DNA of 48,280 nt from an uncultured Neglectibacter sp. (GTDB lineage Bacteria; Bacillota; Clostridia; Oscillospirales; Acutalibacteraceae), in NCBI GenBank assembly GCA_904374805.1, contig CAJFEW010000006.1:1-48280 (forward strand), in the 5' to 3' direction. Both the position numbers and the translations under genes were made by a program. Of this stretch, positions 19,234 to 48,280 are shown piece after piece. Each line of letters starts with the position of its first letter. Positions within the stretch are counted from its first letter, which is position 1. The notes under the pieces are model-generated. The model ran no database searches, was not told the DNA's origin, and saw nothing but the letters and a program-made list of their open reading frames with translations.

Positions 19234-20297
19234 AGGAAGACGCTGTAACGCCATGGGAAGCATGGGATATTAAATCGAAAACTCTGAAAGAGCTGCAAGA
19301 GGAGTTTGCGCAAAAGGGCCTTCCTAAATTCCGGGCTCTGCAAGTCTTCCGCTGGCTTCATCGAGGCGTGGGAGATTTCTCCCAGATGACAGACCTGTCT
19401 AAGGACCTGCGCCAGGATTTGGCCCAGAGCTACCGCATTGTAACGGCCGAGGTGGCCCAAAAGCGGGTTTCCAAGGACGGCACGGTCAAGTATTTGTTCC
19501 GGCTTTTTGACGAGGAGTATGTGGAGTCTGTGCTCATGCACTATAAATATGGAACTTCCATTTGCATTTCCACCCAGGTGGGGTGTAAAATGAACTGTAG
19601 TTTTTGCGCTACGGGGAAGAGTGGGTTTTCCCGCAACTTGGCCGCCTCAGAGATTTTGTCCCAGGTGCAGGCGGCTTCCCAAGACGCAGGGGTGCGCATC
19701 TCCCACATTGTGCTCATGGGTATGGGGGAGCCCCTGGACAACTACGAAAATGTCCTGCGCTTTTTGGAGCTGGTCACCTCTCCGGAGGGGCTGCAGATCG
19801 GCATGCGGCATATCTCCCTGTCCACCTGTGGAATCGTGGACAAAATCTACGATCTGGCAGATCGAAAATACCAGCTCACCCTTTCTGTGTCCCTGCACGC
19901 CCCCAACGACGCGATCCGTTCCCGCACCATGCCGATTAACAATCGTTGGAACATAGGGGAATTGCTGCAGGCGTGCAAGTACTACGGGGCGAAAACAGGG
20001 CGGCGCATCTCCTTTGAGTATGCGCTGATCCAGGGGGTCAACGACACAGACGCGTGCGCTTTGGAACTGGCGGGAAGGTTAAAAGGCATTTTGGCCCATG
20101 TGAATTTGATTCCCGTAAACGATGTGACGGGTACAGGGTACCGGAAGAGCAGAATAGAGCAGCAAAAACGGTTTGTCTCCCTGTTGGAGTCCCGAGGGAT
20201 ACCGGCTACGGTGAGACGAACCTTAGGTTCTGATATAGAGGCTTCCTGCGGGCAGCTGCGGCGTAAAGTTGAAGGAGGGAACGACCATGAGAGTTGA
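19230..20297 (+). CDS. rlmN: Dual-specificity radical SAM rRNA/tRNA methyltransferase RlmN
   Basis: RlmN makes 2-methyladenosine at A2503 of 23S rRNA and A37 of some tRNAs. The 355-residue enzyme has the 4Fe-4S motif CKMNCSFC (C119, C123, C126), GMGEPLDNY, the HISLSTCG strand and LSVSLHAPNDAIRSRTMP. The methyl-carrying C-terminal cysteine is C340 in ASCGQLR. N-terminal helices (LPKFRALQVFRWLHRG) are those that grip RNA. It overlaps rsmB and the phosphatase gene, as in the Bacillus order. Confidence 0.96.
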   Translation: MKEDAVTPWEAWDIKSKTLKELQEEFAQKGLPKFRALQVFRWLHRGVGDFSQMTDLSKDLRQDLAQSYRIVTAEVAQKRVSKDGTVKYLFRLFDEEYVESVLMHYKYGTSICISTQVGCKMNCSFCATGKSGFSRNLAASEILSQVQAASQDAGVRISHIVLMGMGEPLDNYENVLRFLELVTSPEGLQIGMRHISLSTCGIVDKIYDLADRKYQLTLSVSLHAPNDAIRSRTMPINNRWNIGELLQACKYYGAKTGRRISFEYALIQGVNDTDACALELAGRLKGILAHVNLIPVNDVTGTGYRKSRIEQQKRFVSLLESRGIPATVRRTLGSDIEASCGQLRRKVEGGNDHES

Positions 20298-21024
20298 TTT
20301 TGAAACCGATGTGGGCGCAGTCCGAAGTGCCAATCAGGACAGCTGCGAGTGCGGGATCTTTGACTCCGGCGAGGCGTGGGCCATTGTTTGCGATGGCATG
20401 GGAGGCGCTAAGGGAGGCAATGTGGCCAGCTCTATTGCGGCAAAAACCATTCGGGAAGAGCTGGAAGCAGGGTTTGACAGCTCTCTCAGCCAGCCCAATG
20501 TGAAAAATCTGCTGATCAACGCTGTGCGCCGGGCCAACGACGCGGTGCACCAGGCGGCCAGCCAGACGCCGGATCTGCAAGGAATGGGCACCACGGCTGT
20601 GGTGCTGCTGGCGGCCCAGGGAGTTCTGCATGTGGTTCATGTGGGAGACAGCCGGGCCTATTTGCAGCACCAGGGCGTCCTAAGCCAGATCACCATGGAT
20701 CACTCCTATGTACAGGATCTTGTAAACTTTGGGCAGATTACTCCGGAGGAGGCTCGCGTCCACCCCAAGCGGAACATCATCACCCGGGTTTTGGGGGTTC
20801 ACGAGCAAGTCCAGTGCGATTACGGCCTGTGGGACTTGGAGCCTGGGGACATCGCTCTGGCCTGCTCCGACGGATTGAGCAACTATATGGACGAAGCGCA
20901 AATGGAACAGTATTTGGAACAGTATGGGGAAGACGGAAAAGTTTTGTCCCAGGAGTTGATCCGCTTTGCTGTGGAAAGCGGCGGGTCGGACAATATTACG
21001 GTTGCGGTCATTTCGGACATTTGA
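20287..21024 (+). CDS. stp: PP2C-type Ser/Thr protein phosphatase (PrpC/Stp)
   Basis: This metal-dependent phosphatase reverses phosphorylation by the PrkC kinase encoded next. The 245-residue protein has the PP2C motifs in order: GAVRSANQDS, CDGMGGAKGG, GMGTTAVVLL, VGDSRAYL, LACSDGLSNY and GGSDNITVAVI, giving the acidic metal ligands expected of the bacterial class. The start at 20287 follows GGAGGG; an in-frame ATG at 20269 contains that site. The gene overlaps rlmN by 11 bases and lies 37 bases ahead of prkC. Confidence 0.95.
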   Translation: MRVDFETDVGAVRSANQDSCECGIFDSGEAWAIVCDGMGGAKGGNVASSIAAKTIREELEAGFDSSLSQPNVKNLLINAVRRANDAVHQAASQTPDLQGMGTTAVVLLAAQGVLHVVHVGDSRAYLQHQGVLSQITMDHSYVQDLVNFGQITPEEARVHPKRNIITRVLGVHEQVQCDYGLWDLEPGDIALACSDGLSNYMDEAQMEQYLEQYGEDGKVLSQELIRFAVESGGSDNITVAVISDI

Positions 21025-21061: not shown

Positions 21062-23134
21062 ATGGATAAATTCATCGGAAAGCGCCTGGATGGCCGGTAC
21101 GAGATCCACGAGCTGATCGGTGTAGGCGGCATGGCCTATGTGTACAAAGCCTACGATCGGGTAGAGGACCGCTGGGTGGCCATCAAGATTCTCAAGGAAG
21201 AGTTTTCCAACAACAGCGATTTCCTCCGCCGTTTCCGCAACGAGTCCAAGGCTATTGCCGTGCTGTCCCACCCCAATATTGTCAATGTGTACGATGTGAG
21301 CTTCGGCGACCAGCTCCAGTATATTGTCATGGAGTACATCGACGGAATCACCCTTAAGGAATACATTGAGCAGGAAGGCGCCATTCGCTGGAACGAAGCG
21401 GTGCATTTCACCATGCAAATTTTGATGGCGCTGGAGTGCGCCCATGAAAAGGGAATCATTCACCGGGACATCAAGCCCCAAAACATTATGCTGCTGCAGG
21501 ACGGCACCATCAAGGTGGCCGACTTTGGCATCGCCCGGTTCCTGCAAAGCGAAACCACGACCATGACCGACAAGGCCATTGGTTCGGTGCACTACATTGC
21601 TCCGGAGCAGGCCCGCGGCGACTACATCACCGATAAGGCCGACATCTACTCCGTGGGCGTGATGCTCTATGAGATGCTCACTGGCAAGCTGCCCTTTGTG
21701 GCGGACAACGCTGTGTCGGTGGCCTTGATGCAGCTGCAGGCAAAGGCGGTCAAGCCCCGGGAGCTCAATCCCTCCATCCCTCTGGGGCTGGAGCAAATTA
21801 CCATGAAGGCCATGGAGAAAAATCCCGCGGACCGGTTCCAATCTGCGGGGGAGATGCTGGATGATCTGGATCAATTCCGCCGTAATCCCAACACCGTGTT
21901 CCACTATGACTTGCAGTCGGCGGGTGCCCGCTACGACGCGGCCCGCACTATGCAGTCCTATGACTCTTCCCGGCAGGCGCCGGCCTATAACGACGACTAT
22001 GAATACGAGGAAGAGCTGGTTCGGTCCCGCCGCAGTGCCAAGGGCGCCATGGCGGTCAAAGGCGTGTTGGTGGCGGTCATCATTGTGGGCCTGGCCGTGG
22101 CGGCCATTTACTTCCTCAATTGGTGGAACAACCGTCCCACCGAGGAAAACGATCAAATGGAAATGCCGCAGCTGGTGGGGCAGCTCTATGAGGATGTGAT
22201 CAACAACGAAGAGTATGCCGACTTCCATTTTGAGGTAACAGAAGGTAACGATCCCGAACTGCAGCCGGGAGAGATTATGCACCAGAACCCGGAGGCAGGC
22301 ATCATGGTTCGCCGGGATGCGGATGTAGAGCTCCTGGTCAACGGCGGTGTGGAAAAGGTCACTGTACCGGATGTGACGAACGACACCTTAGAAGAGGCGC
22401 AGACGGCTCTGGAAAACGTCGGGCTGCACAGCAAAGTGGAAAATGTGGCGGATGATGAGGTGGAAGAAGGTCACGTGATCTCCACCGATCCCCAGGCCAA
22501 CACAGAGGTAGACGCTGGCTCTACTGTCACCTTGCGGGTGAGCACAGGCCCTGCGGAAACCATGGTCACCGTTCCCTCCGACCTGGTGGGAGATCTGCTG
22601 TACAATGTGACGGCCAGGCTGGAAGACGCCGGCTTAAGCGTAGGGAATATTACTCGGGATGATTCCAGCACAGAGCCTGCAGACACAGTCATCAGCACCA
22701 ACCCGGCAGGGGGCTCCGAAGTGTCCGAGGGTACCTCTGTGGACATTGTGGTGAGCTCCGGCGCCAATTCCCCCAAAGTGCTGACGTACAGTGTGCCCTT
22801 GCCCAGCGGGGTCAACGAGGACGTCTCCCTGACCGTGTACCGCAACGGAACCCAGGTGGATTCCCAGATTGTCAACCCCTCCTACAACAACAGCTATAAT
22901 TTGAGCTTTACCGGTACTTCCGGTACGGAGACGATTGTGGTGGAATTGAACGGCCAGACCTATATGGAGCTGCAGTTTAACTACGACAGCCAGACCACCC
23001 AGGTCACCCGCACGTACGATTTCCAAACGTCGGAAGGCAGTGAAAGCAGCGAATCCTCTGGCAGTGAAAGTTCGCAGGAGACACCTTCCGGCGAAGGGGA
23101 GAATAGCTCTTCCGACGAGGAGGGCGTCCAGTGA
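21062..23134 (+). CDS. prkC: PASTA-domain Ser/Thr protein kinase PrkC
   Basis: PrkC is a membrane kinase that senses peptidoglycan fragments or lipid II through extracellular PASTA repeats. The 690-residue protein has an N-terminal kinase domain with GVGGMAYVYKA, VAIKIL (Lys42), HRDIKPQN (134-141), DFGIAR (Asp154) and a full activation segment, so it should be active. A transmembrane helix follows at about 334-354. Three PASTA units lie outside (from about residue 368 to 570), then a further beta domain and a Ser/Glu-rich C-terminal tail. It stands between its phosphatase and rsgA and overlaps the latter by GTGA. Confidence 0.96.
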   Translation: MDKFIGKRLDGRYEIHELIGVGGMAYVYKAYDRVEDRWVAIKILKEEFSNNSDFLRRFRNESKAIAVLSHPNIVNVYDVSFGDQLQYIVMEYIDGITLKEYIEQEGAIRWNEAVHFTMQILMALECAHEKGIIHRDIKPQNIMLLQDGTIKVADFGIARFLQSETTTMTDKAIGSVHYIAPEQARGDYITDKADIYSVGVMLYEMLTGKLPFVADNAVSVALMQLQAKAVKPRELNPSIPLGLEQITMKAMEKNPADRFQSAGEMLDDLDQFRRNPNTVFHYDLQSAGARYDAARTMQSYDSSRQAPAYNDDYEYEEELVRSRRSAKGAMAVKGVLVAVIIVGLAVAAIYFLNWWNNRPTEENDQMEMPQLVGQLYEDVINNEEYADFHFEVTEGNDPELQPGEIMHQNPEAGIMVRRDADVELLVNGGVEKVTVPDVTNDTLEEAQTALENVGLHSKVENVADDEVEEGHVISTDPQANTEVDAGSTVTLRVSTGPAETMVTVPSDLVGDLLYNVTARLEDAGLSVGNITRDDSSTEPADTVISTNPAGGSEVSEGTSVDIVVSSGANSPKVLTYSVPLPSGVNEDVSLTVYRNGTQVDSQIVNPSYNNSYNLSFTGTSGTETIVVELNGQTYMELQFNYDSQTTQVTRTYDFQTSEGSESSESSGSESSQETPSGEGENSSSDEEGVQ

Positions 23135-40043: not shown

Positions 40044-41552
40044 ATGACGCTGGAAATGCGCAATATCTTTAAGTCGTTTGGAGCCAACGATGTGCTCCGG
40101 GATATTGACTTTACCATCAGCGGCGGAGAAATCTGTGCCTTGTTGGGAGAAAACGGCGCAGGTAAGTCCACCCTGATGAATATTCTGGGAGGCGTTCTCC
40201 CGGCGGATTCCGGTACCATCTCTTTGGATGGAAAGCCGGTTTCGTTTCACAACCCGGCGGATTCTCTGCAGGCGGGCATTGCCTTTATCCATCAGGAGCT
40301 GAATCTTGTCAACGACCTGGCGGTTTTTGAAAATATGTTCATTGGCCGCGAGATCAAGACAAAAAGCGGCCTTTTGGACGCAAAGACCATGTGCCAGCGC
40401 TGCAAGGAAGTGTTCCAGCGCATGGATGTGGACCTGGATCCGCGCACATTGGTGCGCAACTTGGACGCTTCCTATAAGCAGATTGTGGAGATCGCCCGGG
40501 CGCTCTTGGCGGAGGCCTCCATCATTATTATGGACGAGCCAACCACGTCTCTGACGGAGTTGGAGATTGAGCGTGTTTTTGACATGATGCGCACCGTTCG
40601 GGAGCAGGGCGTTGCCATTATCTTCATCTCCCACAAATTGAAAGAGGTCATGGAAATTTGTGACCGGTATACCGTTCTGCGGGACGGTGTTATGGTGGCG
40701 CAGGGGAGTGTCTCCGAAACCAATGTGAACGAATTGGCCCGTTTCATGGTGGGCCACGATGTGCGAACAGAGTCTTTACGCCGGGAACGGAAGTTGGGCG
40801 CAGAGGTGCTTCGGGTGGAGAACCTCTCCCAGCCGGGCCGATTCTCAGATATCAGCTTTTCTGTTCGCGGCGGAGAAATCCTTGGCTTTACAGGCCTGCT
40901 GGGAGATGGACGCAGCGAGCTGTTCCAGGCCGTGTTTGGCAGCGGGGGAAAATACACTGGCCAGATCTACCTGGAGGGAAACCCCGTGCGGATTCATAGT
41001 ACCCAGCAGGCGGTGGCTTTGGGAATTGGCTATGTGCCTCGGGACCGGAAAGAAAATGGCATCATCAAAGACATGAACATTTTGGAAAACGGTTCCATCG
41101 TCACCTGGCCCCGCTGCGGTAAGTGGGGATGGATTTCTTGGAGCCAAGTAAAAGCAGCTTTCCAGCGTCAGGCGGAACGGCTGAAAATCAAGATGGACGA
41201 TGAGAACCATCCCATCGGCAGTTTGTCCGGCGGCAATCAGCAGAAAGTTGTTTTGGCCAAGTGGCTCAACGCAGAGCCCAAGCTCCTGATTTTTGACAAC
41301 CCCACCCAAGGCGTGGATGTGGGCGCCAAAGAGGACATTTATGATACCATTCTGGAGCTGGCCCACCAGGGCATTGCGGTGGTGGTCCTCTCCAGCGAGG
41401 CCCAGGAGATCATTCGCATTTGCGATCGGACCATGGTGCTCTATCACGGGAAGGTCCAAGGAGAACTGGTAGGGGATGCCATGACCGACCAGGAAATCAT
41501 GCGCCTGGCAACAGGTGGAGAAAGAGAAGAGAGGGTGGCCATCAGTGGATAA
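40044..41552 (+). CDS. Sugar ABC transporter double ATP-binding protein
   Basis: The 502-residue protein has two fused ABC domains in the RbsA/MglA manner. The first has GENGAGKST (about residues 35-43), LDASYKQIVEIARALL and IIIMDEPTTSL. The second has a degenerate P-loop GLLGDGRSE, a signature LSGGNQQKVVLAKWL and LLIFDNPTQGVDVGAK, in which the Walker B glutamate is replaced by Asn. Degenerate second domains are common in CUT2 transporters. It lies between binding-protein and permease genes and overlaps the latter by 8 bases. Confidence 0.94.
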   Translation: MTLEMRNIFKSFGANDVLRDIDFTISGGEICALLGENGAGKSTLMNILGGVLPADSGTISLDGKPVSFHNPADSLQAGIAFIHQELNLVNDLAVFENMFIGREIKTKSGLLDAKTMCQRCKEVFQRMDVDLDPRTLVRNLDASYKQIVEIARALLAEASIIIMDEPTTSLTELEIERVFDMMRTVREQGVAIIFISHKLKEVMEICDRYTVLRDGVMVAQGSVSETNVNELARFMVGHDVRTESLRRERKLGAEVLRVENLSQPGRFSDISFSVRGGEILGFTGLLGDGRSELFQAVFGSGGKYTGQIYLEGNPVRIHSTQQAVALGIGYVPRDRKENGIIKDMNILENGSIVTWPRCGKWGWISWSQVKAAFQRQAERLKIKMDDENHPIGSLSGGNQQKVVLAKWLNAEPKLLIFDNPTQGVDVGAKEDIYDTILELAHQGIAVVVLSSEAQEIIRICDRTMVLYHGKVQGELVGDAMTDQEIMRLATGGEREERVAISG

Positions 41553-42591
41553 TGTAAAAAAAGAAAAACAGGGAGTTCTGGCCCGCTTTCAGGAACTGTG
41601 GAAAACCACGCCCCTGTTCAGTACGGGTATTGCTTTAATCGTTATGGTGGTGGTCCAGACGCTGGCCCTCACATTCAACTCCAGCTATGACTCCTTTGGC
41701 GGCTGGTTTATGAACTGGCTGAACAACTGGATTTCCCTTCTGAGGGGCAATGCCGCCATTGGCATCATCTCCCTGGGCATGACGTTTGTCATCATTTCCG
41801 GGGGCATTGACCTGTCTGTGGGCTCTGTCTACGTGGCGGTGGGCGCCTTTACCATGGTCCTGTTGGATACCGGTGCAGGCGGCTGGCTGGGGGCCCTCGG
41901 TCTGGGCGGAGTTCCCGCTATCCTCATCGCGCTGGTTGCGGCCATGCTGTTTGGAAGCCTGCTGGGGGAAGGGAACGGTTTGCTGATTTCCTACGGCAAA
42001 ATGCCGCCCTTCATTGCCACGTTGGGTTCCATGCAGATTCTTCGGAGTGTGACCCAGTACTTTATGAAAACCCAAAGCCCCTCTCTTCCGGACGGCTATA
42101 AGGAAATCGCCCGGTTTTCTATCGGCGGTCAGCAGCTGATGCCCATTCTTTACTGGGCGATTGCCGCTGCAGTCATGTACTTTGTGTCCAAGCACACCAC
42201 CTTTGGCCGTTACGTGTATGCCATTGGCTCGAACGAGCGCACCACCCGGCTTTCCGGTGTGAACGTGCGGAAAGTGAAGCGCCGGGTTTACGCCCTCACC
42301 GGTCTGTTGGTGGCCATTGCCGCCATCATCCAGACCTCCCGTATTGGCTCCATGGACTATGCCAGCGCTGGCAGCGGTTTTGAAATGGACGCCATTGCGG
42401 CGGTGATTGTTGGCGGCACCAGCATGTCCGGTGGCCGCGGCTCTGTGATCGGCACCGTATTCGGCACCCTCATTGTAGCGGTGATGAACAACTTGCTGAA
42501 TCTGATCGGTGTGGACCCCTATCTGAGTTCCGCATTTAAGGGCGCCATTATTATCTGCGCCGTGCTGCTGCAAAGAAAGGACAACAATTAA
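41545..42591 (+). CDS. Sugar ABC transporter permease (RbsC-like)
   Basis: The 348-residue permease has about nine hydrophobic helices and the CUT2 signature FVIISGGIDLSVGSVYVAVG, plus GNGLLISYGKMPPFIATLG, YAIGSNERTTRLSGVNV and IVGGTSMSGGRGSVIGT. The first helix is preceded by 20 basic residues. The GTG at 41545 lies 8 bases upstream of the ATPase stop and follows GAGAGGG; an in-frame ATG at 41515 is too far inside that gene. The operon ends here, and a new promoter for the aldolase begins within 15 bases. Confidence 0.93.
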   Translation: MDNVKKEKQGVLARFQELWKTTPLFSTGIALIVMVVVQTLALTFNSSYDSFGGWFMNWLNNWISLLRGNAAIGIISLGMTFVIISGGIDLSVGSVYVAVGAFTMVLLDTGAGGWLGALGLGGVPAILIALVAAMLFGSLLGEGNGLLISYGKMPPFIATLGSMQILRSVTQYFMKTQSPSLPDGYKEIARFSIGGQQLMPILYWAIAAAVMYFVSKHTTFGRYVYAIGSNERTTRLSGVNVRKVKRRVYALTGLLVAIAAIIQTSRIGSMDYASAGSGFEMDAIAAVIVGGTSMSGGRGSVIGTVFGTLIVAVMNNLLNLIGVDPYLSSAFKGAIIICAVLLQRKDNN

Positions 42592-42602
42592 CGCGCGGGG
42601 AG

Positions 42603-42631
42603 TTGATTTTTCCCGGTTTGTCCAGTATAAT
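42603..42631 (+). promoter_or_regulatory. Promoter of the aldolase gene
   Basis: TTGATT (42603-42608), 17 bases and TATAAT (42626-42631) lie about 40 bases before the ATG at 42672, separating its expression from the transporter operon. Confidence 0.72.
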
Positions 42632-42671
42632 AAAATCAGTCAAAATTCTACCGTTTTGGGAGGCACGCTTT

Positions 42672-43535
42672 ATGTTAGTTTCCGCAAAAGAAATGCTGCA
42701 AAAGGCCAAGGCTGGCAAATATGCTGTTGGCCAGTTTAACATCAACAACCTGGAGTGGACCAAGGCAATCCTGCTCACTGCACAGGAGTGCAATTCCCCT
42801 GTGATTCTGGGTGTGTCCGAGGGCGCCGGCAAGTATATGTGCGGCTATAACACTGTCGTCGGTATGGTGAACGGCATGCTCAAGACCCTGAACATCACGG
42901 TGCCCGTGGCTCTGCATCTGGATCACGGCTCCTATGAGGGCGCTCTGCAGGCTATGGAAGACGGCTTCTCTTCCGTCATGTTCGACGGCTCTCATTATCC
43001 CATCGACGAGAACATTGAGAAGACCAAGGAAATTATCCGCATCGCCACGGAAAAGGGCATCTCTGTGGAGGCTGAGGTCGGCGCCATCGGCGGCGAGGAA
43101 GACGGCGTCGTAGGCGGCGGCGAAGTGGCCGATCCCGACGAGTGCAAGATGATTGCTGACCTGGGTGTGACCATGCTGGCTGCCGGCATTGGCAACATCC
43201 ACGGTGTGTATCCTGAAAACTGGACCGGCCTGAACTTTGACGTGCTGGCTAAGATCCAGGAGAAGACCGGCACCATGCCTTTGGTGCTCCACGGCGGCAC
43301 CGGCATTCCTGCCGAGATGGTGAAGCAGGCCATCACCCTGGGCGTTTCCAAGGTGAACGTGAACACCGAATGCCAGCTGTCCTTTGCTGCTGCTACCCGC
43401 AAGTACATTGAGGCTGGCAAGGATCAGCAGGGCAAGGGCTTTGACCCTCGGAAGCTGCTGGCTCCTGGCACGGAAGCCATCAAGGAGACCGTCAAGGAAA
43501 AGATGGAGCTGTTTGGCTCTGTAGGCAAGGCCTAA
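42672..43535 (+). CDS. fba: Class II fructose-bisphosphate aldolase
   Basis: The enzyme splits fructose 1,6-bisphosphate to dihydroxyacetone phosphate and glyceraldehyde 3-phosphate using zinc. The 287-residue protein has the zinc and catalytic residues in ALHLDHGSYEG, the SVMFDGSHYPIDENIEKT block, GNIHGVYP and LVLHGGTGIP, and the phosphate-binding VNVNTECQL. It closely resembles clostridial glycolytic Fba, but tagatose-bisphosphate aldolases share these motifs. Codon bias is strong. The ATG at 42672 follows GGGAGG. Confidence 0.9.
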   Translation: MLVSAKEMLQKAKAGKYAVGQFNINNLEWTKAILLTAQECNSPVILGVSEGAGKYMCGYNTVVGMVNGMLKTLNITVPVALHLDHGSYEGALQAMEDGFSSVMFDGSHYPIDENIEKTKEIIRIATEKGISVEAEVGAIGGEEDGVVGGGEVADPDECKMIADLGVTMLAAGIGNIHGVYPENWTGLNFDVLAKIQEKTGTMPLVLHGGTGIPAEMVKQAITLGVSKVNVNTECQLSFAAATRKYIEAGKDQQGKGFDPRKLLAPGTEAIKETVKEKMELFGSVGKA

Positions 43536-43632: not shown

Positions 43633-43661
43633 TTGTGTTTTTGCTGAGCCTGTGGTATAAT
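43633..43661 (+). promoter_or_regulatory. Promoter of the pseudokinase-WYL unit
   Basis: TTGTGT (43633-43638), 17 bases and TATAAT (43656-43661) predict a leader of about 65 bases before the ATG at 43733. The repeated string CATAGAAATTT (43665 and 43696) occurs twice in the leader. Confidence 0.72.
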
Positions 43662-43732: not shown

Positions 43733-45337
43733 ATGGAGAGCAATCTGTGCATGAATTGTTTTGCCGGCCTAGAGTCCGGAAGCGCTACCTGCCCGGCCTG
43801 CGGCTGGGACAACACAAACACACAGCCGGAGCAGGCCTTGGAGTATCTGTGTATAGTTGCCTCTCGTTACCAGGTGGGACGGGTCAAAGCCAGGAACGGG
43901 GAAGGCTTTACGTACGCTGCCTTAGATCTGACCACCCACAAGGAAGTGGAGCTGCGGGAGTTCTTTCCGGACGCCTTGGCGGAGCGGGCCAAGGACGGTG
44001 TGCGGGTAATCCCCTTTCAAGGGCAGGAAGACGCTTTTGAAGACTGCTTGGACGCTTTCGTGGAACTGATGAAAAACGTCAGCCGCTTGCGGGAGGTGTC
44101 CGTCGTTCACTCGGTCCTCGATATTTTTGAAGAAAACTACACAGCCTACGCTGTCTATGAATTTGTGCCATCCGTCACCCTTCGGCGCTATGTGGGGGGA
44201 GTGGGGGGCAGCTTGCCTTGGAACACTGCCAACCCCATGTTCCTGCCAGTGCTGACAGCCCTTGGGCTGTTCAATTCCTTAGGGGTTTCCCATTTGGGAA
44301 TTTCTCCCGATACCCTGCGGGTAACCAAAGACGCCACACTGCTGATCACCGGATTTTCCATTCCCGCTGCTCGCCGGGCCGGCACGCCTTTGGCAGCAGA
44401 CTTGGCGCCGGGCTGCGCTGCCTTGGAGCAGTTTAGCGCCAAAGCCACCTGTGGGGAGATCAGCGATGTGTATGGATTTGCCGCCACCTTGTTTTTTGCT
44501 CTGACCGGAGAAACACCGGCGGACGCTCCCAGGCGGTTAAAAGATCCCAAGCTTATGATTTCTAAAGACGTGCTCCATTCGCTGCCGCCCTTTGCTGTAA
44601 CGGCCCTGGCAAACGCTCTGCAGGTGCGGCCGGCTCAACGCACCGCCAGTTTTGAGCGGTTCAAAACAGAGCTTTCCGCTGCACCCACTCTTGCTGCAGA
44701 GGTGGATCAAACAGAGGCCATCCGCCGCATTCCGCCTCTGGATATCCACGTTCCTCAGGGGCGGGGCCTGCCTCCCTTTGTTTGGCTCATAGGGTCCGGT
44801 GTGGTGACTTTGGTGGCCTTGGTGATTGTGGCCTCCCTGTGGATGGGGGACCGGGGCATGTCCTTTTCCGATTTAACCCAGCTTTTTTCCGAGAGCAGTT
44901 CCTCCGTTCCCATGGAAACAGTGCCTAACTTGGTCAACACCAATTACGAAGAGTGCCTGCAAAAAGTGGAGAGTGGGGAATACCCCTTTCAGCTGGAGAT
45001 AACCGAGCAGGAATTCAACGAAACCGTTGCAGAGGGTTGCATCAGCAGTCAGGTCCCCTTCTCTGGAGAGCCCATTCCCGAAAATGGCGTGGTGACTGTG
45101 ACAGTCAGCCGGGGCAGCGCCCAGCGGACCCTGCCGGATTACACCGGCGTCAGCTATGAAAAGCTGGAAGAGCTCCTCACGGATAACGGCTTTGTACCCC
45201 AGCGGGTGGAAGAAGCCAGCGAGGATATTGAGGCGGGCTATGTGGTGCGGTATGAGGGCCACGCAGCGGGAGACTCTCTGGACTATGGATCTTCCATAAC
45301 GGTGGTGGTCAGCACCGGTCCTGCTGTGGCTGAATGA
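43733..45337 (+). CDS. Zinc-ribbon pseudokinase with TM helix and PASTA domains
   Basis: The 534-residue protein has an N-terminal zinc ribbon (Cys6, Cys9, Cys20, Cys23), a kinase-like domain (about residues 48-310), a transmembrane helix at about 348-371 and two PASTA units (about 393-530). The kinase fold is recognisable from ALDLTTHKEVELREFFP, YAVYEFVPSVTLRRYVGG and GEISDVYGFAATLFFALTGETP, but key residues are lost. The beta3 lysine is Arg75, HRD is HLG (187-189) and DFG is TGF (206-208). It is therefore probably inactive and acts as a sensor or scaffold. ATG 43733 follows GGAGGGG, which decides it against GTG 43715. A WYL regulator follows after 16 bases. Confidence 0.85.
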   Translation: MESNLCMNCFAGLESGSATCPACGWDNTNTQPEQALEYLCIVASRYQVGRVKARNGEGFTYAALDLTTHKEVELREFFPDALAERAKDGVRVIPFQGQEDAFEDCLDAFVELMKNVSRLREVSVVHSVLDIFEENYTAYAVYEFVPSVTLRRYVGGVGGSLPWNTANPMFLPVLTALGLFNSLGVSHLGISPDTLRVTKDATLLITGFSIPAARRAGTPLAADLAPGCAALEQFSAKATCGEISDVYGFAATLFFALTGETPADAPRRLKDPKLMISKDVLHSLPPFAVTALANALQVRPAQRTASFERFKTELSAAPTLAAEVDQTEAIRRIPPLDIHVPQGRGLPPFVWLIGSGVVTLVALVIVASLWMGDRGMSFSDLTQLFSESSSSVPMETVPNLVNTNYEECLQKVESGEYPFQLEITEQEFNETVAEGCISSQVPFSGEPIPENGVVTVTVSRGSAQRTLPDYTGVSYEKLEELLTDNGFVPQRVEEASEDIEAGYVVRYEGHAAGDSLDYGSSITVVVSTGPAVAE

Positions 45338-45353
45338 GAGAGGGGTGTCCTTT

Positions 45354-46331
45354 GTGCCAAATGTTTCCCTGAAAAAACTGAAACTCCTGTATCTGCTTCA
45401 GATGCTGTGGGAGAACACCGACGATCAACACGCGTTGACTCTTCCCCGCATGTTGGAGGAGTTGGAACGTTTGGGAATTTCTGCAGAGAGGAAAAGTCTG
45501 TACGATGACATAGAAACTCTTCGCCAGTTTGGAGTTCCCATTGAGACCCGCAAAGGACGCACCTTCGAATATTTTATTGCAGAGCGCCCGTTCACCCAGA
45601 GTGATGTGCACTTGTTGGCTGAGTCTGTGCTGCAGGCACCCTTTCTTTCCTCCCACAGAGCTGCGCAGCTGAGAAAAAAGCTGACCTTGCTGGGAAGCGT
45701 CTACCAAGGGGAACAGCTGCTCCAAAGCGGGGGCAGGGAGGAACCGGCGCTTCTAGAACAAGAGGCGGATGAAACCGGCGCCCAGGAGCCGGTTCCGGTG
45801 GAGGAGAGCCCTTCCACGGAAGAGCTGGTGCGGGCTGCTATGGAGCGAGATGTGCAGGTGGTTTTGCAGCTGTCGCCCTGGCGTCTCCACGCCGATGGAA
45901 AGCTGGTGCGTTCCCGCAAAACGGTTGTGGTCAGCCCCTGGAGAATTTTACGGCGCGCTGCTGTTTTGTCTCTGTACGCTTACGGGAGCGAGGAAAAAAG
46001 ATTTCTCTCCCTGCCTCTCGAGGAAATTCACGGGGTGGAGCTGTTGAGCAATCCCAGAGAAGGGGAGAAAAAACTCCCTGGGTGGGAACGGCTGACGCTG
46101 GAGTTTCCTGTGGGACGCTTGGAAGAGGTGTGCCGGTTCTTCGACGGGGCTATGGAAACAGAGCCATTTGGAAAGGGGAAAATCCGGGCGGTGGTGCAGA
46201 CCCAGTTGGATGCAGAATTTTTTGCCTGGCTCTTTTCTCAAGGCCCGGAATTGCGCCTGACCGCCCCCAAGAAGGCTGCGGAGCAATTTCGGGAGCGGGC
46301 AAAATCTTTGGCGAAGGCCTATAAGCCGTGA
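45354..46331 (+). CDS. HTH/WYL-domain transcriptional regulator
   Basis: The 325-residue protein has an N-terminal winged helix-turn-helix (KLKLLYLLQMLWENTDD...RKSLYDDIETLRQFGVPIETRKG, residues 1-70), a charged linker, and a WYL-like sensor domain with SPWRILRRAAVLSLYAYGSEEKRF (from about residue 195). The C-terminal extension has the usual alpha/beta layout (LTLEFPVGRLEEVCRFF). WYL domains sense ligands such as ssDNA or nucleotides in known members; the ligand here is unknown. The start is GTG at 45354, 9 bases after GAGAGGGG; GTG 45345 would overlap the site. It shares the pseudokinase transcript and ends at a terminator (46374). Confidence 0.82.
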   Translation: MPNVSLKKLKLLYLLQMLWENTDDQHALTLPRMLEELERLGISAERKSLYDDIETLRQFGVPIETRKGRTFEYFIAERPFTQSDVHLLAESVLQAPFLSSHRAAQLRKKLTLLGSVYQGEQLLQSGGREEPALLEQEADETGAQEPVPVEESPSTEELVRAAMERDVQVVLQLSPWRLHADGKLVRSRKTVVVSPWRILRRAAVLSLYAYGSEEKRFLSLPLEEIHGVELLSNPREGEKKLPGWERLTLEFPVGRLEEVCRFFDGAMETEPFGKGKIRAVVQTQLDAEFFAWLFSQGPELRLTAPKKAAEQFRERAKSLAKAYKP

Positions 46332-47929
46332 GAGGACGTCTGGGTGTCGAGGTCTCTTCTGTTGTGTTTTGCGGTGCTGCAAAAGCTCTCTTTTGCGGCA
46401 CTTTTTTGTGCTTTTCTCCGGGCTTTTCCAGTGTTTTTCTGCATAAACCCGGTGCAGCCTCCGTAAGACAGCAAAAAGATACTGCCGCACACAAGCAACT
46501 CGCAGCTAATTTCCCACAGCGGCTGGGAGAAAGGAAAGGGGGCCAGCAGCTTCTTTCCTATCCAAAGAGAGAGGCCGGCACACAGCAGGGGAAGGAGCAC
46601 GTGCTGGGACAGGGATAGACGGACTTGTGTCACCTGCAGCAGGCGGTGCAAGCTCAGCGCCGCGTTGAAGATGGTGCTGAAAAACAGGATGCCCACATAG
46701 CTTTCCAACCCGAAAAACCGCAGCAGACACAGCACAAGCGTCACCCGCAGCAGAGAGTCCGCCAAGTTGTATTTCATGGAGTTGAACTGTTCGTCCATGC
46801 CTTTGAGCAGGCTGTCTACCACCACGTCAAGATATACCAAGGGAGCCAAAGGCGCCAGAACCTGCAAATAGGCGCCGGCGTTTTTATTGCCGTACAAGGC
46901 GATTCCCCAGCTATCCCCAAAGGTCAAAAATAGCCCGGCGAAAAAGATCCCAAAGGCTAGCGCCAGCCGCAGGGCCTTTCCTGTAATGTGGGCCACAGCC
47001 CTCTGGTGGTGCAACTCCCGCTCCTTGGCAATTTTGGGAATCAACAGGGAAGCAAAGGAGGAGAGCAGGGAAGAGGGAAAATACAGCATGGGCATGGCCA
47101 TGCCCTGAAGCAATCCGTATTGGGAGAGAGCTCCACTGTAGCTCAAGCCATATTTTTGCAGCTCCTTGGGAATCAGCAGGTTTTCCCCGGTATTCAAAGC
47201 GCTGCGGGCAGCGGAGCTCAAGGTGCAGGGCAGGGCGATGTGGGCCAGTCCCTGGAGGACACCTTTCGCTTTTTCTCGGTTCTTGGGAGTGTTCCGGCGC
47301 AAACTGCTGCGGTAAGCTGCCCAGCTGCACACAAAGGACGTTGCCTCCCCCAAGGTGGAGGCAAGCATGGCGGCAAAGCAGGCTGCCTCCAGGCTTTGGG
47401 GGGCAAATCTCCAAAAAAGGAACACCGTGGCTCCAATGGTCAGCGCCTGCTCCATGGCGTCGGAAAAGGCGGTGGAGAGAGATTCGTCCACCGCTAAAAA
47501 GTACCCTTTCATGCAGGTGCACAGGGACATGAAAGGCAGCCCCACCCCCAAGATTCGCAGGCAAGGCGCCGCCTGGGCGGTTCCTAAAAACACCGCCGCT
47601 GCAGGCTCTGCCAGGAAAAACAGCAGCAGAGCAATGGACAGGCTGACGGAGAGGCAGAACCCAAAGCACCGGGCCACCGTGGAACGCACCACCTGCCGTT
47701 TTCCTGTGGCCATGGCCGCAGTGACCATCCGTGTCACCGCCAGGCTGATGCCTGAGGTGGACAGAGTTACGGTTAAGGTGAAAATGGAGAAGATCAGTTG
47801 ATAGAGGCCCATCCCCGCGGAGCCCATCTCCTGAGAGAGAAAGGAGCGGTAGCCCATGTTGCTGATGCGCAAAAGCAGGGAGACCGCTGTAAGCACGGCC
47901 CCCTGGATCAGAAATTTTTGTTTCGTCAT
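46319..47929 (-). CDS. SpoVB-like MOP-superfamily flippase
   Basis: The 536-residue integral membrane protein belongs to the polysaccharide-biosynthesis/MurJ-like branch of the MOP exporters, close to SpoVB of sporulating Firmicutes. It starts KQKFLIQGAVLTAVSLLLRI, then MGYRSFLSQEMGSAGMGLYQLIF, TLSTSGISLAVTRM and MKGYFLAVDESLSTAFSDAMEQ; about 14 hydrophobic helices can be counted. SpoVB acts in spore cortex precursor transport. The last 40 residues are basic and poorly conserved, and the gene end overlaps the WYL gene on the other strand by 13 bases. ATG 47929 follows GGAGG; other in-frame starts upstream lie in prmA. Confidence 0.88.
   Translation of the reverse strand: MTKQKFLIQGAVLTAVSLLLRISNMGYRSFLSQEMGSAGMGLYQLIFSIFTLTVTLSTSGISLAVTRMVTAAMATGKRQVVRSTVARCFGFCLSVSLSIALLLFFLAEPAAAVFLGTAQAAPCLRILGVGLPFMSLCTCMKGYFLAVDESLSTAFSDAMEQALTIGATVFLFWRFAPQSLEAACFAAMLASTLGEATSFVCSWAAYRSSLRRNTPKNREKAKGVLQGLAHIALPCTLSSAARSALNTGENLLIPKELQKYGLSYSGALSQYGLLQGMAMPMLYFPSSLLSSFASLLIPKIAKERELHHQRAVAHITGKALRLALAFGIFFAGLFLTFGDSWGIALYGNKNAGAYLQVLAPLAPLVYLDVVVDSLLKGMDEQFNSMKYNLADSLLRVTLVLCLLRFFGLESYVGILFFSTIFNAALSLHRLLQVTQVRLSLSQHVLLPLLCAGLSLWIGKKLLAPFPFSQPLWEISCELLVCGSIFLLSYGGCTGFMQKNTGKARRKAQKSAAKESFCSTAKHNRRDLDTQTSSHGL
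46374..46407 (+). terminator. Terminator of the pseudokinase-WYL unit
   Basis: GTGCTGCAAAAG (46374-46385) pairs with CTTTTGCGGCAC (46390-46401), one G-U pair, a 4-base loop and a T6 tail. It lies 42 bases past the WYL stop and inside the C-terminal coding sequence of the opposite flippase gene. Confidence 0.85.
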
Positions 47930-47940
47930 AGCGCCTCCGG

Positions 47941-47969
47941 TTGCAAGGGGATGGGGAATCAGGTATAAT
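47941..47969 (+). promoter_or_regulatory. Promoter of prmA
   Basis: TTGCAA (47941-47946), 17 bases and TATAAT (47964-47969) stand about 32 bases before the ATG at 48002, which has a GAGGGAAG site. The -35 is directly beside the ribosome site of the divergent flippase gene. Confidence 0.75.
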
Positions 47970-48001
47970 ACGGGAAGAAACCGTGAAACGAGGGAAGATC
48001 C

Positions 48002-48280
48002 ATGAATGAGAACTGGACCGAACTGAAAATCAAAGTGCCCGCCCCCCAGGCGGACATTGCCGGCGCCATCGCCAACATGGTGGTGCCCTACGGCATCTAT
48101 ATGGAGGACTACTCCCATTTAGAAGAGGAGGCCATGGAGATTGCCCACATCGACCTCATCGACGAAGAGCTTCTCCAAAAAGACCGGGAGCACGCCATCA
48201 TCCACATCTACATCAGCCCCGAGGCCAACCCCGCCGAGGCTGTCTCCTTCCTGGAGGAGCGCTTCCAGGCGGAAAATATC
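48002..48280 (+). CDS. prmA: Ribosomal protein L11 methyltransferase, N-terminal part
   Basis: PrmA trimethylates ribosomal protein L11. Only the first 93 codons are in the window; the gene runs off the right edge. The visible part starts MNENWTELKIKVP and contains IANMVVPYGIYMEDYSHLEE and IAHIDLIDEELLQKDREHAI, the N-terminal substrate-recognition domain as found in Oscillospiraceae PrmA. The SAM-binding domain is not in the window, so the call rests on the N terminus. Confidence 0.75.
   Translation, partial: MNENWTELKIKVPAPQADIAGAIANMVVPYGIYMEDYSHLEEEAMEIAHIDLIDEELLQKDREHAIIHIYISPEANPAEAVSFLEERFQAENI

Follow-up and report, generated by a model that had tools for sequence, protein, structure and literature searches.

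The stretch of DNA analysed here (the window) is 48,280 nucleotides in length and forms contig C6 of a 2.27 Mb draft genome; in a search of genome contigs, its closest named relatives were uncultured Clostridia, Firmicutes and 'Neglecta' MAGs. Two plus-strand genes of the window form the subject of this study. The first (43733–45337, ATG start) encodes a protein of 534 residues, which contains a zinc ribbon, a pseudokinase domain, one transmembrane (TM) helix and two PASTA repeats. The second (45354–46331, GTG start) encodes a regulator of 325 residues, composed of helix-turn-helix (HTH), degenerate WYL and WCX parts. In agreement with a preliminary description of the sequence, the two genes are 16 bases apart, as counted from the stop of the first gene to GTG 45354; an alternative in-frame start, GTG 45345, is also possible for the regulator.

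A candidate promoter is located at 43633–43661 of the plus strand; as read from the sequence, it consists of a weak -35 element (TTGTGT), a 17-base spacer and an extended -10 element (TGG-TATAAT). The -35 element matches at three of six positions, which is below the -35 threshold of the promoter scan, and the site is missing from the scan's list for this reason. In the upstream alignment with relatives, the TTCTTGT...TATAAT pattern is kept in four sequences (L004, L005, L006, L010) and in part in a fifth (L007), which supports the promoter proposed previously. As inspected by eye, no conserved palindromic operator was seen in the common upstream region, where the promoter elements alone align. 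The proposed terminator was recovered by the terminator scan, as an intrinsic one with a 13-pair stem and a T run at 46373–46402 of the plus strand.

The zinc ribbon of the window protein (43748–43801, plus strand as for all of its features) is built by C6, C9, C20 and C23. These four Cys residues are invariant in 84 of 84 aligned family members; Pfam zinc-ribbon models gave sub-threshold matches to the window protein. The pseudokinase domain (about residues 45–316; 43865–44680) has NGEG at its G-loop, Arg75 at the position of the β3 Lys and Leu112 at that of the αC Glu; HRD is replaced by HLG (residues 187–189) and DFG by TGF (residues 206–208). The zinc-ribbon Cys residues, Arg75, HLG and TGF were thus all read as first described. 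The domain is followed by the juxtamembrane stretch EVDQTEAIRRIPP (44702–44740), a candidate phospho-Thr or FHA-ligand-like motif, and by the TM helix (about residues 351–372; 44783–44848), a hydrophobic stretch read from the sequence and kept across the homologues. The two PASTA repeats (about residues 396–531; 44918–45325) were matched by Pfam PF03793 in two stretches, with an E-value of 4.1e-19, and both they and the TM helix agree with the preliminary description. Following one TM helix, the PASTA repeats are predicted to be extracellular, as in the PrkC/Stk1 kinases.

The Pfam kinase model has no match to the window protein at E≤10; the kinase homology of the protein and its family is supported by NCBIfam, by PDB profile search and by Pfam matches of relatives. 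A kinase homologue that has lost at least one of the VAIK Lys, the HRD Asp and the DFG Asp is generally regarded as a pseudokinase, and the window protein has lost them all. Like PrkC, PknB and Stk1, it has a kinase fold inside, one TM helix and PASTA repeats outside, and NCBIfam NF033483 matches it with an E-value of 7.6e-31, the best stretch running through the TM and PASTA parts. However, the score of 107.7 bits is below the curated cut-off of 450, and, different from the PrkC/Stk1 definition with intact HRD and DFG, the catalytic residues are lost (HLG and TGF). Searched with the window protein, its own genome gave matches, besides the protein itself, in PrkC only; that PrkC differs from the pseudokinase in having neither the N-terminal zinc ribbon nor the REFFP motif. 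The search of genome contigs returned seven close relatives with 57–74% identity over the alignment. Arg75 and HLG are kept in all seven and the DFG Asp is gone in six (L004 reads TDF); recurring in this way, the residue changes are not due to chance.

The wider family was collected by profile search. At E≤1e-60, matches were present in 347 of the 398 same-family genomes, covering 119 of 135 genera; order-wide, 73 of 394 genomes matched at this cut-off, all within families f1 and f26, and the protein thus also exists in a second family of this order. Among the matches listed, which leave out 31 same-family genomes without a match, all but two genomes have one match each, at a threshold that misses weaker second copies. 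Sixty-five loci, minus one duplicate genome, were combined with 20 further proteins into the alignment of 84 members; 19 active kinases served as comparators, namely PrkC and 18 readable loci outside f1 and f26 (L206 was unreadable). Neither the HRD Asp nor the αC Glu is present in any of the 84 members, and the canonical residue is kept at the β3 Lys in 11, at the DFG Asp in 10 and at the DFG Gly in two; all five catalytic residues are present in 19 of 19 comparators. None of the five is kept by 63 members and one by 20; L079 keeps three, namely the Lys, the DFG Asp and the DFG Gly. At their G-loop tip, 79 of 84 members carry an acidic residue, compared to Phe in 17 of 19 comparators. Pfam analysis of 25 diverse members, the window protein included, identified PASTA in all of them and Pkinase in 24, and annotation pipelines are therefore likely to call members active kinases. 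The dN/dS of the pseudokinase gene is 0.04–0.14 over five pairs, as a rough estimate with high synonymous distances, and open frames were found in nearly all matches listed. As judged from the sequences, the family of the window protein is an old one of Oscillospiraceae-like Clostridia, consists of pseudokinases and is under purifying selection.

When 40 members were placed in a quick tree together with 17 active kinases, with the motif columns removed, the members formed one clade with an SH-aLRT value of 100. A more careful tree, with 20 of the 84 pseudokinases and 18 active kinases (two PrkC and 16 of the 18 other active ones), again grouped the members in one clade, with support of 98/100. 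The single clade is most simply explained by one loss of catalysis, after which the dead form was retained. With the catalytic positions lost across one clade under purifying selection, the pseudokinase nature proposed in the preliminary description is strongly supported.

The quick tree seemed to place this clade beside the zinc-ribbon kinases and away from PrkC. In the careful tree, however, the forks at the base of the clade are weak, and joining the clade to PrkC rather than to the zinc-ribbon kinases is acceptable by the AU test (p 0.675). The active zinc-ribbon kinases of Clostridia carry GGFGITY, IKEYFP, HRDISPDN and LLDFGAAR motifs. Like the pseudokinases, 16 of 18 have an N-terminal CxxC...CxxC ribbon (L192 is N-terminally cut and L205 has none), and they contain a KEYFP-like motif; different from the pseudokinases, they keep the catalytic residues in 18 of 18 cases and have no PASTA within their last 60 residues. 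PrkC lacks the zinc ribbon and the REFFP/KEYFP motif, which the pseudokinases have in common with the zinc-ribbon kinases. Moreover, the best zinc-ribbon kinases outscore PrkC on the family profile: L187 reaches 214 bits over the ribbon and kinase part, compared to 112 bits for PrkC with its PASTA part included. Owing to the common ribbon and KEYFP-like motif and the higher scores, we favour attachment of the clade to the zinc-ribbon kinases, although the history of the PASTA part may be a separate one. The origin of the clade leaves the scaffold reading given below unaffected, because that reading builds on domain content and residue loss.

Seven bacterial pseudokinase families were described in a 2025 review, and in its accessible text none of them is described with a zinc ribbon together with PASTA (PMC12599244). 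ActPs2 is characterized by an HRD Asp to Asn change, a DFG deletion and a long activation loop, GLW by GLW in place of HRD, DYD by a DYD motif and DLHK by a retained HRD Asp; as compared by these motif descriptions, the family with its HLG and xGF belongs to none of the four (PMC12599244). ActPs1 has all three motifs changed and a PQQ domain or a missing G-helix, ActPs3 has an activation-loop deletion, and CP1 has a COG3899 domain without TM; compared to these descriptions (PMC12599244), the present family differs in lineage and in accessory domains, Pfam finding mainly PASTA and kinase models in its members. Like the DYD kinases, about 60% of which are pseudokinases, the family has Firmicutes members, a β3 Lys to Arg change, no αC Glu and membrane association; the DYD kinases differ in their DYD motif and canonical HRD and/or DFG, whereas mostly xGF and no HRD Asp are found here (PMC12599244). 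EssB/YukC is likewise a transmembrane pseudokinase of Firmicutes with a scaffold role, but it is part of type VII secretion, and PASTA and zinc ribbon are not in its description in the accessible text (PMC12599244). The MviN pseudokinase (ActPs3), which acts with FhaA, is also a membrane pseudokinase and belongs to a cell-wall pathway in which the PASTA kinase is another protein; it is actinobacterial and part of MviN, and neither zinc ribbon nor PASTA is in its description in the same text (PMC12599244).

The term 'zinc' is absent from the text of the 2025 review (PMC12599244), and also from the accessible part of a C. difficile phosphoproteome paper, whose authors allow that CD2148, the second kinase, might be a pseudokinase (PMC9674922). 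A 2005 survey of prokaryotic kinase architectures noted PASTA kinases and counted sequences lacking the catalytic Asp (PMC1262709, accessible part). As searched by title and opening of the abstract in the open-licence literature, which covers few subscription papers, no description was found of a zinc-ribbon/pseudokinase/PASTA family; the same search of open-licence titles and abstract openings gave none of an FHA-SEDS fusion. Pseudokinases and PASTA receptors are thus both known, and their combination with a zinc ribbon was not found described in the open-licence literature searched.

The window also encodes the active PASTA kinase that the preliminary description had placed at 21–23 kb. This PrkC-type protein (21062–23134, plus strand) has intact motifs, three PASTA stretches and a Pkinase match with an E-value of 1.2e-57, and no other protein of the draft genome matches Pkinase at E≤0.01; its gene is preceded by that of a PP2C phosphatase (20269–21024). 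In our best reading, which is drawn from sequence, the window protein would be a catalytically dead, single-pass PASTA receptor, and we lean towards its acting in the PrkC pathway without catalysis, as a scaffold or PASTA co-receptor. Because the protein is kept in many genera, mostly without the regulator gene, it is probably a non-enzymatic partner in cell-wall signalling. The outer PASTA repeats would place or gate the receptor at peptidoglycan. Its cytoplasmic pseudokinase fold would carry out no phosphorylation and would serve the PrkC/PP2C cell-wall circuit as an allosteric partner or scaffold. It might pair with PrkC, or a juxtamembrane Thr phosphorylated by PrkC might be presented to another protein. 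Signalling of this non-phosphorylating kind alongside PrkC is plausible. Against this reading, nucleotide binding is possible in some members, since Lys75 persists in 11 of 84 and the DFG Asp in 10, with three catalytic residues together in L079, and residual or unusual catalysis is possible as well. We infer PrkC as the partner; it need not be the sole one in G202, G427 and G461, as these genomes combine a pseudokinase member with further zinc-ribbon kinase matches at weaker E-values.

If true, this co-receptor or scaffold role would make the family a clear example, from many genera of gut Clostridia, of bacterial pseudokinases whose signalling role is conserved and non-enzymatic; where members are annotated as active kinases, phosphoproteomic studies could go looking for an activity that would not exist. 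The family also supplies its own test set, which comprises active zinc-ribbon kinases for comparison, one PrkC in the genome that encodes the pseudokinase, and lineages that have or lack the regulator.

A more specific version of such a scaffold resembles MviN and FhaA: PrkC would phosphorylate the juxtamembrane Thr327 (in DQTEAIRR), which would then recruit the FHA domain of an FHA-SEDS polymerase. The precedent is the phosphorylation of the MviN pseudokinase tail by PknB, to which FhaA binds (PMC12599244, accessible text). The draft genome has a single FHA match at E≤0.01, which lies in a fusion with a SEDS (FtsW/RodA-type) peptidoglycan polymerase; among 58 relatives, 55 have FHA matches, and the fusion accounts for 20 of the 30 FHA loci inspected there. 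The pattern [DE]xTxx[ILVM] is present in 22 of 84 juxtamembrane stretches compared to 4.9 expected by shuffling, a count that is no probability, as the motif was chosen after viewing the sequences and the rows are related. Its carriers are mostly near the branch of the window protein. However, the motif is absent from 62 of 84 members, and G134 has the pseudokinase and an adjacent WYL regulator with no FHA match. A PrkC target motif common to IreB was also considered and found no support: the N-terminus of the genome's own IreB (MDSNNTITFS) has no DQT sequence, which likewise speaks against this phospho-dependent recruitment. We consider it unlikely on balance.

The preliminary description proposed that the pseudokinase receives a cell-wall signal and, through direct contact, hands it on to the WYL regulator made from the same transcript. 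In this regulator, the WCX domain is matched by Pfam (PF25583, 1.7e-5), whereas the HTH_11 match (0.0077) is sub-threshold and the WYL domain (PF13280) is absent from the Pfam matches of the window regulator, its WYL part being recognisable by homology and alignment to relatives alone. The sole PDB profile match, an mTERF protein, has an E-value of 0.37 and was taken as chance. Pfam finds WYL just above the cut-off in L004, not in L007, and clearly in L046 and L048. The pocket motifs of the relatives, NYYLxxYD and KHFRVDKM, read AVLSLYAYGS and LSLPLEEI in the window regulator, and the NYYL and RVDKM residues are gone in the clade of the window (seven genomes, L005 being partly unreadable). The dN/dS of the HTH is 0.04–0.08 (four measurable pairs) and that of the middle region 0.26–0.39 (three pairs). 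Since the pocket residues are lost and the DNA-binding domain is kept, the regulator of the window lineage is likely controlled otherwise or constitutive.

Such a degenerate sensor with a kept HTH would suit a regulator driven by a protein partner, and the promoter footprint and terminator fit a single transcript. In nine of 65 loci (64 genomes), the regulator lies directly downstream on the same strand; these are the window, L004, L005, L006, L007, L008, L010, L046 and L048, with gaps of about 9–68 bases and at least three genus groups, and five of the loci counted as lacking it end less than 1.5 kb past the pseudokinase gene, so that a regulator could lie beyond. A tree of the nine adjacent and 20 non-adjacent regulators allows, weakly, one origin of the adjacent ones (62/87). 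Co-transcription of a WYL-type regulator with the pseudokinase is probably present in a few lineages.

However, the self-contained unit described previously is not general. Because the two genes are adjacent in some relatives, the proposal escapes the refutation by lack of adjacency that the preliminary description had named, but in most loci read the pseudokinase stays without the regulator, also within the genus: G125, G217, G282 and G376 have the pseudokinase and no WYL-profile match at E≤1e-25. Regulator-profile matches at that threshold are present in 250 of 398 same-family genomes; as compared by eye among the matches listed in both profile searches, they are beside the pseudokinase only in G000, G334, G199 and G134. 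Neighbour clustering of the 20 non-adjacent WYL loci, covering flanks of about 2 kb wherever the contig reached that far, identified no pseudokinase and no gene common to most of them. Around the pseudokinase itself (65 loci minus L004 and L061), neighbours recur only as synteny, with no functional partner among them. Two of the nine adjacent regulators, the outer cases L046 (G199) and L048 (G134), keep an intact WYL domain, so pairing does not require loss of the WYL pocket. The regulator is also less conserved than the pseudokinase (43–58% compared to 61–74% identity to the window proteins in the same six genomes), its middle region being the least constrained. Judging from these sequence comparisons, the regulator is not part of the pseudokinase core, and direct relay, a lineage-specific possibility, appears improbable, somewhat more so than the recruitment of an FHA-SEDS polymerase. 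Equally improbable is a combination of the two, in which the pseudo-PASTA receptor would be a phospho-switched docking platform of PrkC for the FHA-fused polymerase, and some lineages would have captured a sensing-less WYL regulator that is now driven by the pseudokinase.

The fold might also serve as a repurposed enzyme, with the nucleotide pocket kept for other chemistry such as AMPylation or glutamylation, as in SelO and SidJ. Gly49, Tyr61, Asp65, Glu76, His187, Glu232, Gln233 and Arg303 are conserved, on the pocket side and elsewhere; however, Tyr61, Glu76 and His187 are also present in active relatives, and no conserved alternative acidic residue takes the place of the HRD or DFG Asp. The acidic G-loop tip of 79 of 84 members should disfavour phosphate binding, for which VRK3 is the comparison. 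Precedents exist in SelO and SidJ (PMC12599244, accessible text), and we give such repurposing a slightly lower chance again than direct relay. A decaying gene pair without function, to which the missing catalytic residues and the fast-changing WYL middle region could point, is hardly credible, being contradicted by open frames in nearly all matches listed and by the dN/dS of 0.04–0.14.

The WYL-type regulator encoded at 45354-46331 forms one clade with its counterparts in the close relatives (loci L004, L005, L006, L007, L008 and L010); the pocket residues are gone in this clade, and the DNA-binding domain is retained. This 'pseudo-WYL' state is unusual in itself.

In the window, the pseudokinase-regulator pair is flanked on its 3' side by a convergent gene on the minus strand (46319-48118), which encodes a polysaccharide-flippase-type protein (Polysacc_synt, 4.2e-17); this flippase-type gene (neighbour cluster c6) adjoins the pair in several close relatives too. 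The region upstream of the pseudokinase (40044-43535) encodes an ABC ATPase, a BPD_transp_2 permease and a class-II fructose-bisphosphate aldolase, forming a sugar-uptake-like cluster that has no known link to the pseudokinase. Outside the window's genus, the gene immediately 5' of the pseudokinase is often one that we take, from its sequence, to be YebC-like (L048, L049, L051, L053, L056 and others); clustering of the neighbours placed these genes in one cluster, c1, with 15 members, and their adjacency to the pseudokinase is taken as synteny.

The sole FHA match in the window's own draft genome (E<=0.01; G000:C9:39693-39884, loci L106 and L108) is part of a protein that also contains a polymerase domain of the SEDS type (FtsW/RodA/SpoVE). 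Among the 30 FHA loci inspected from relatives, 20 carry the same fusion; in the remaining FHA loci, no SEDS fusion was found. Some genomes each have two or three additional matches to zinc-ribbon kinases that lie near each other on a single contig (G427:C18, G461:C99, G202:C43 and G996:C68), apparently as clusters of related kinases.
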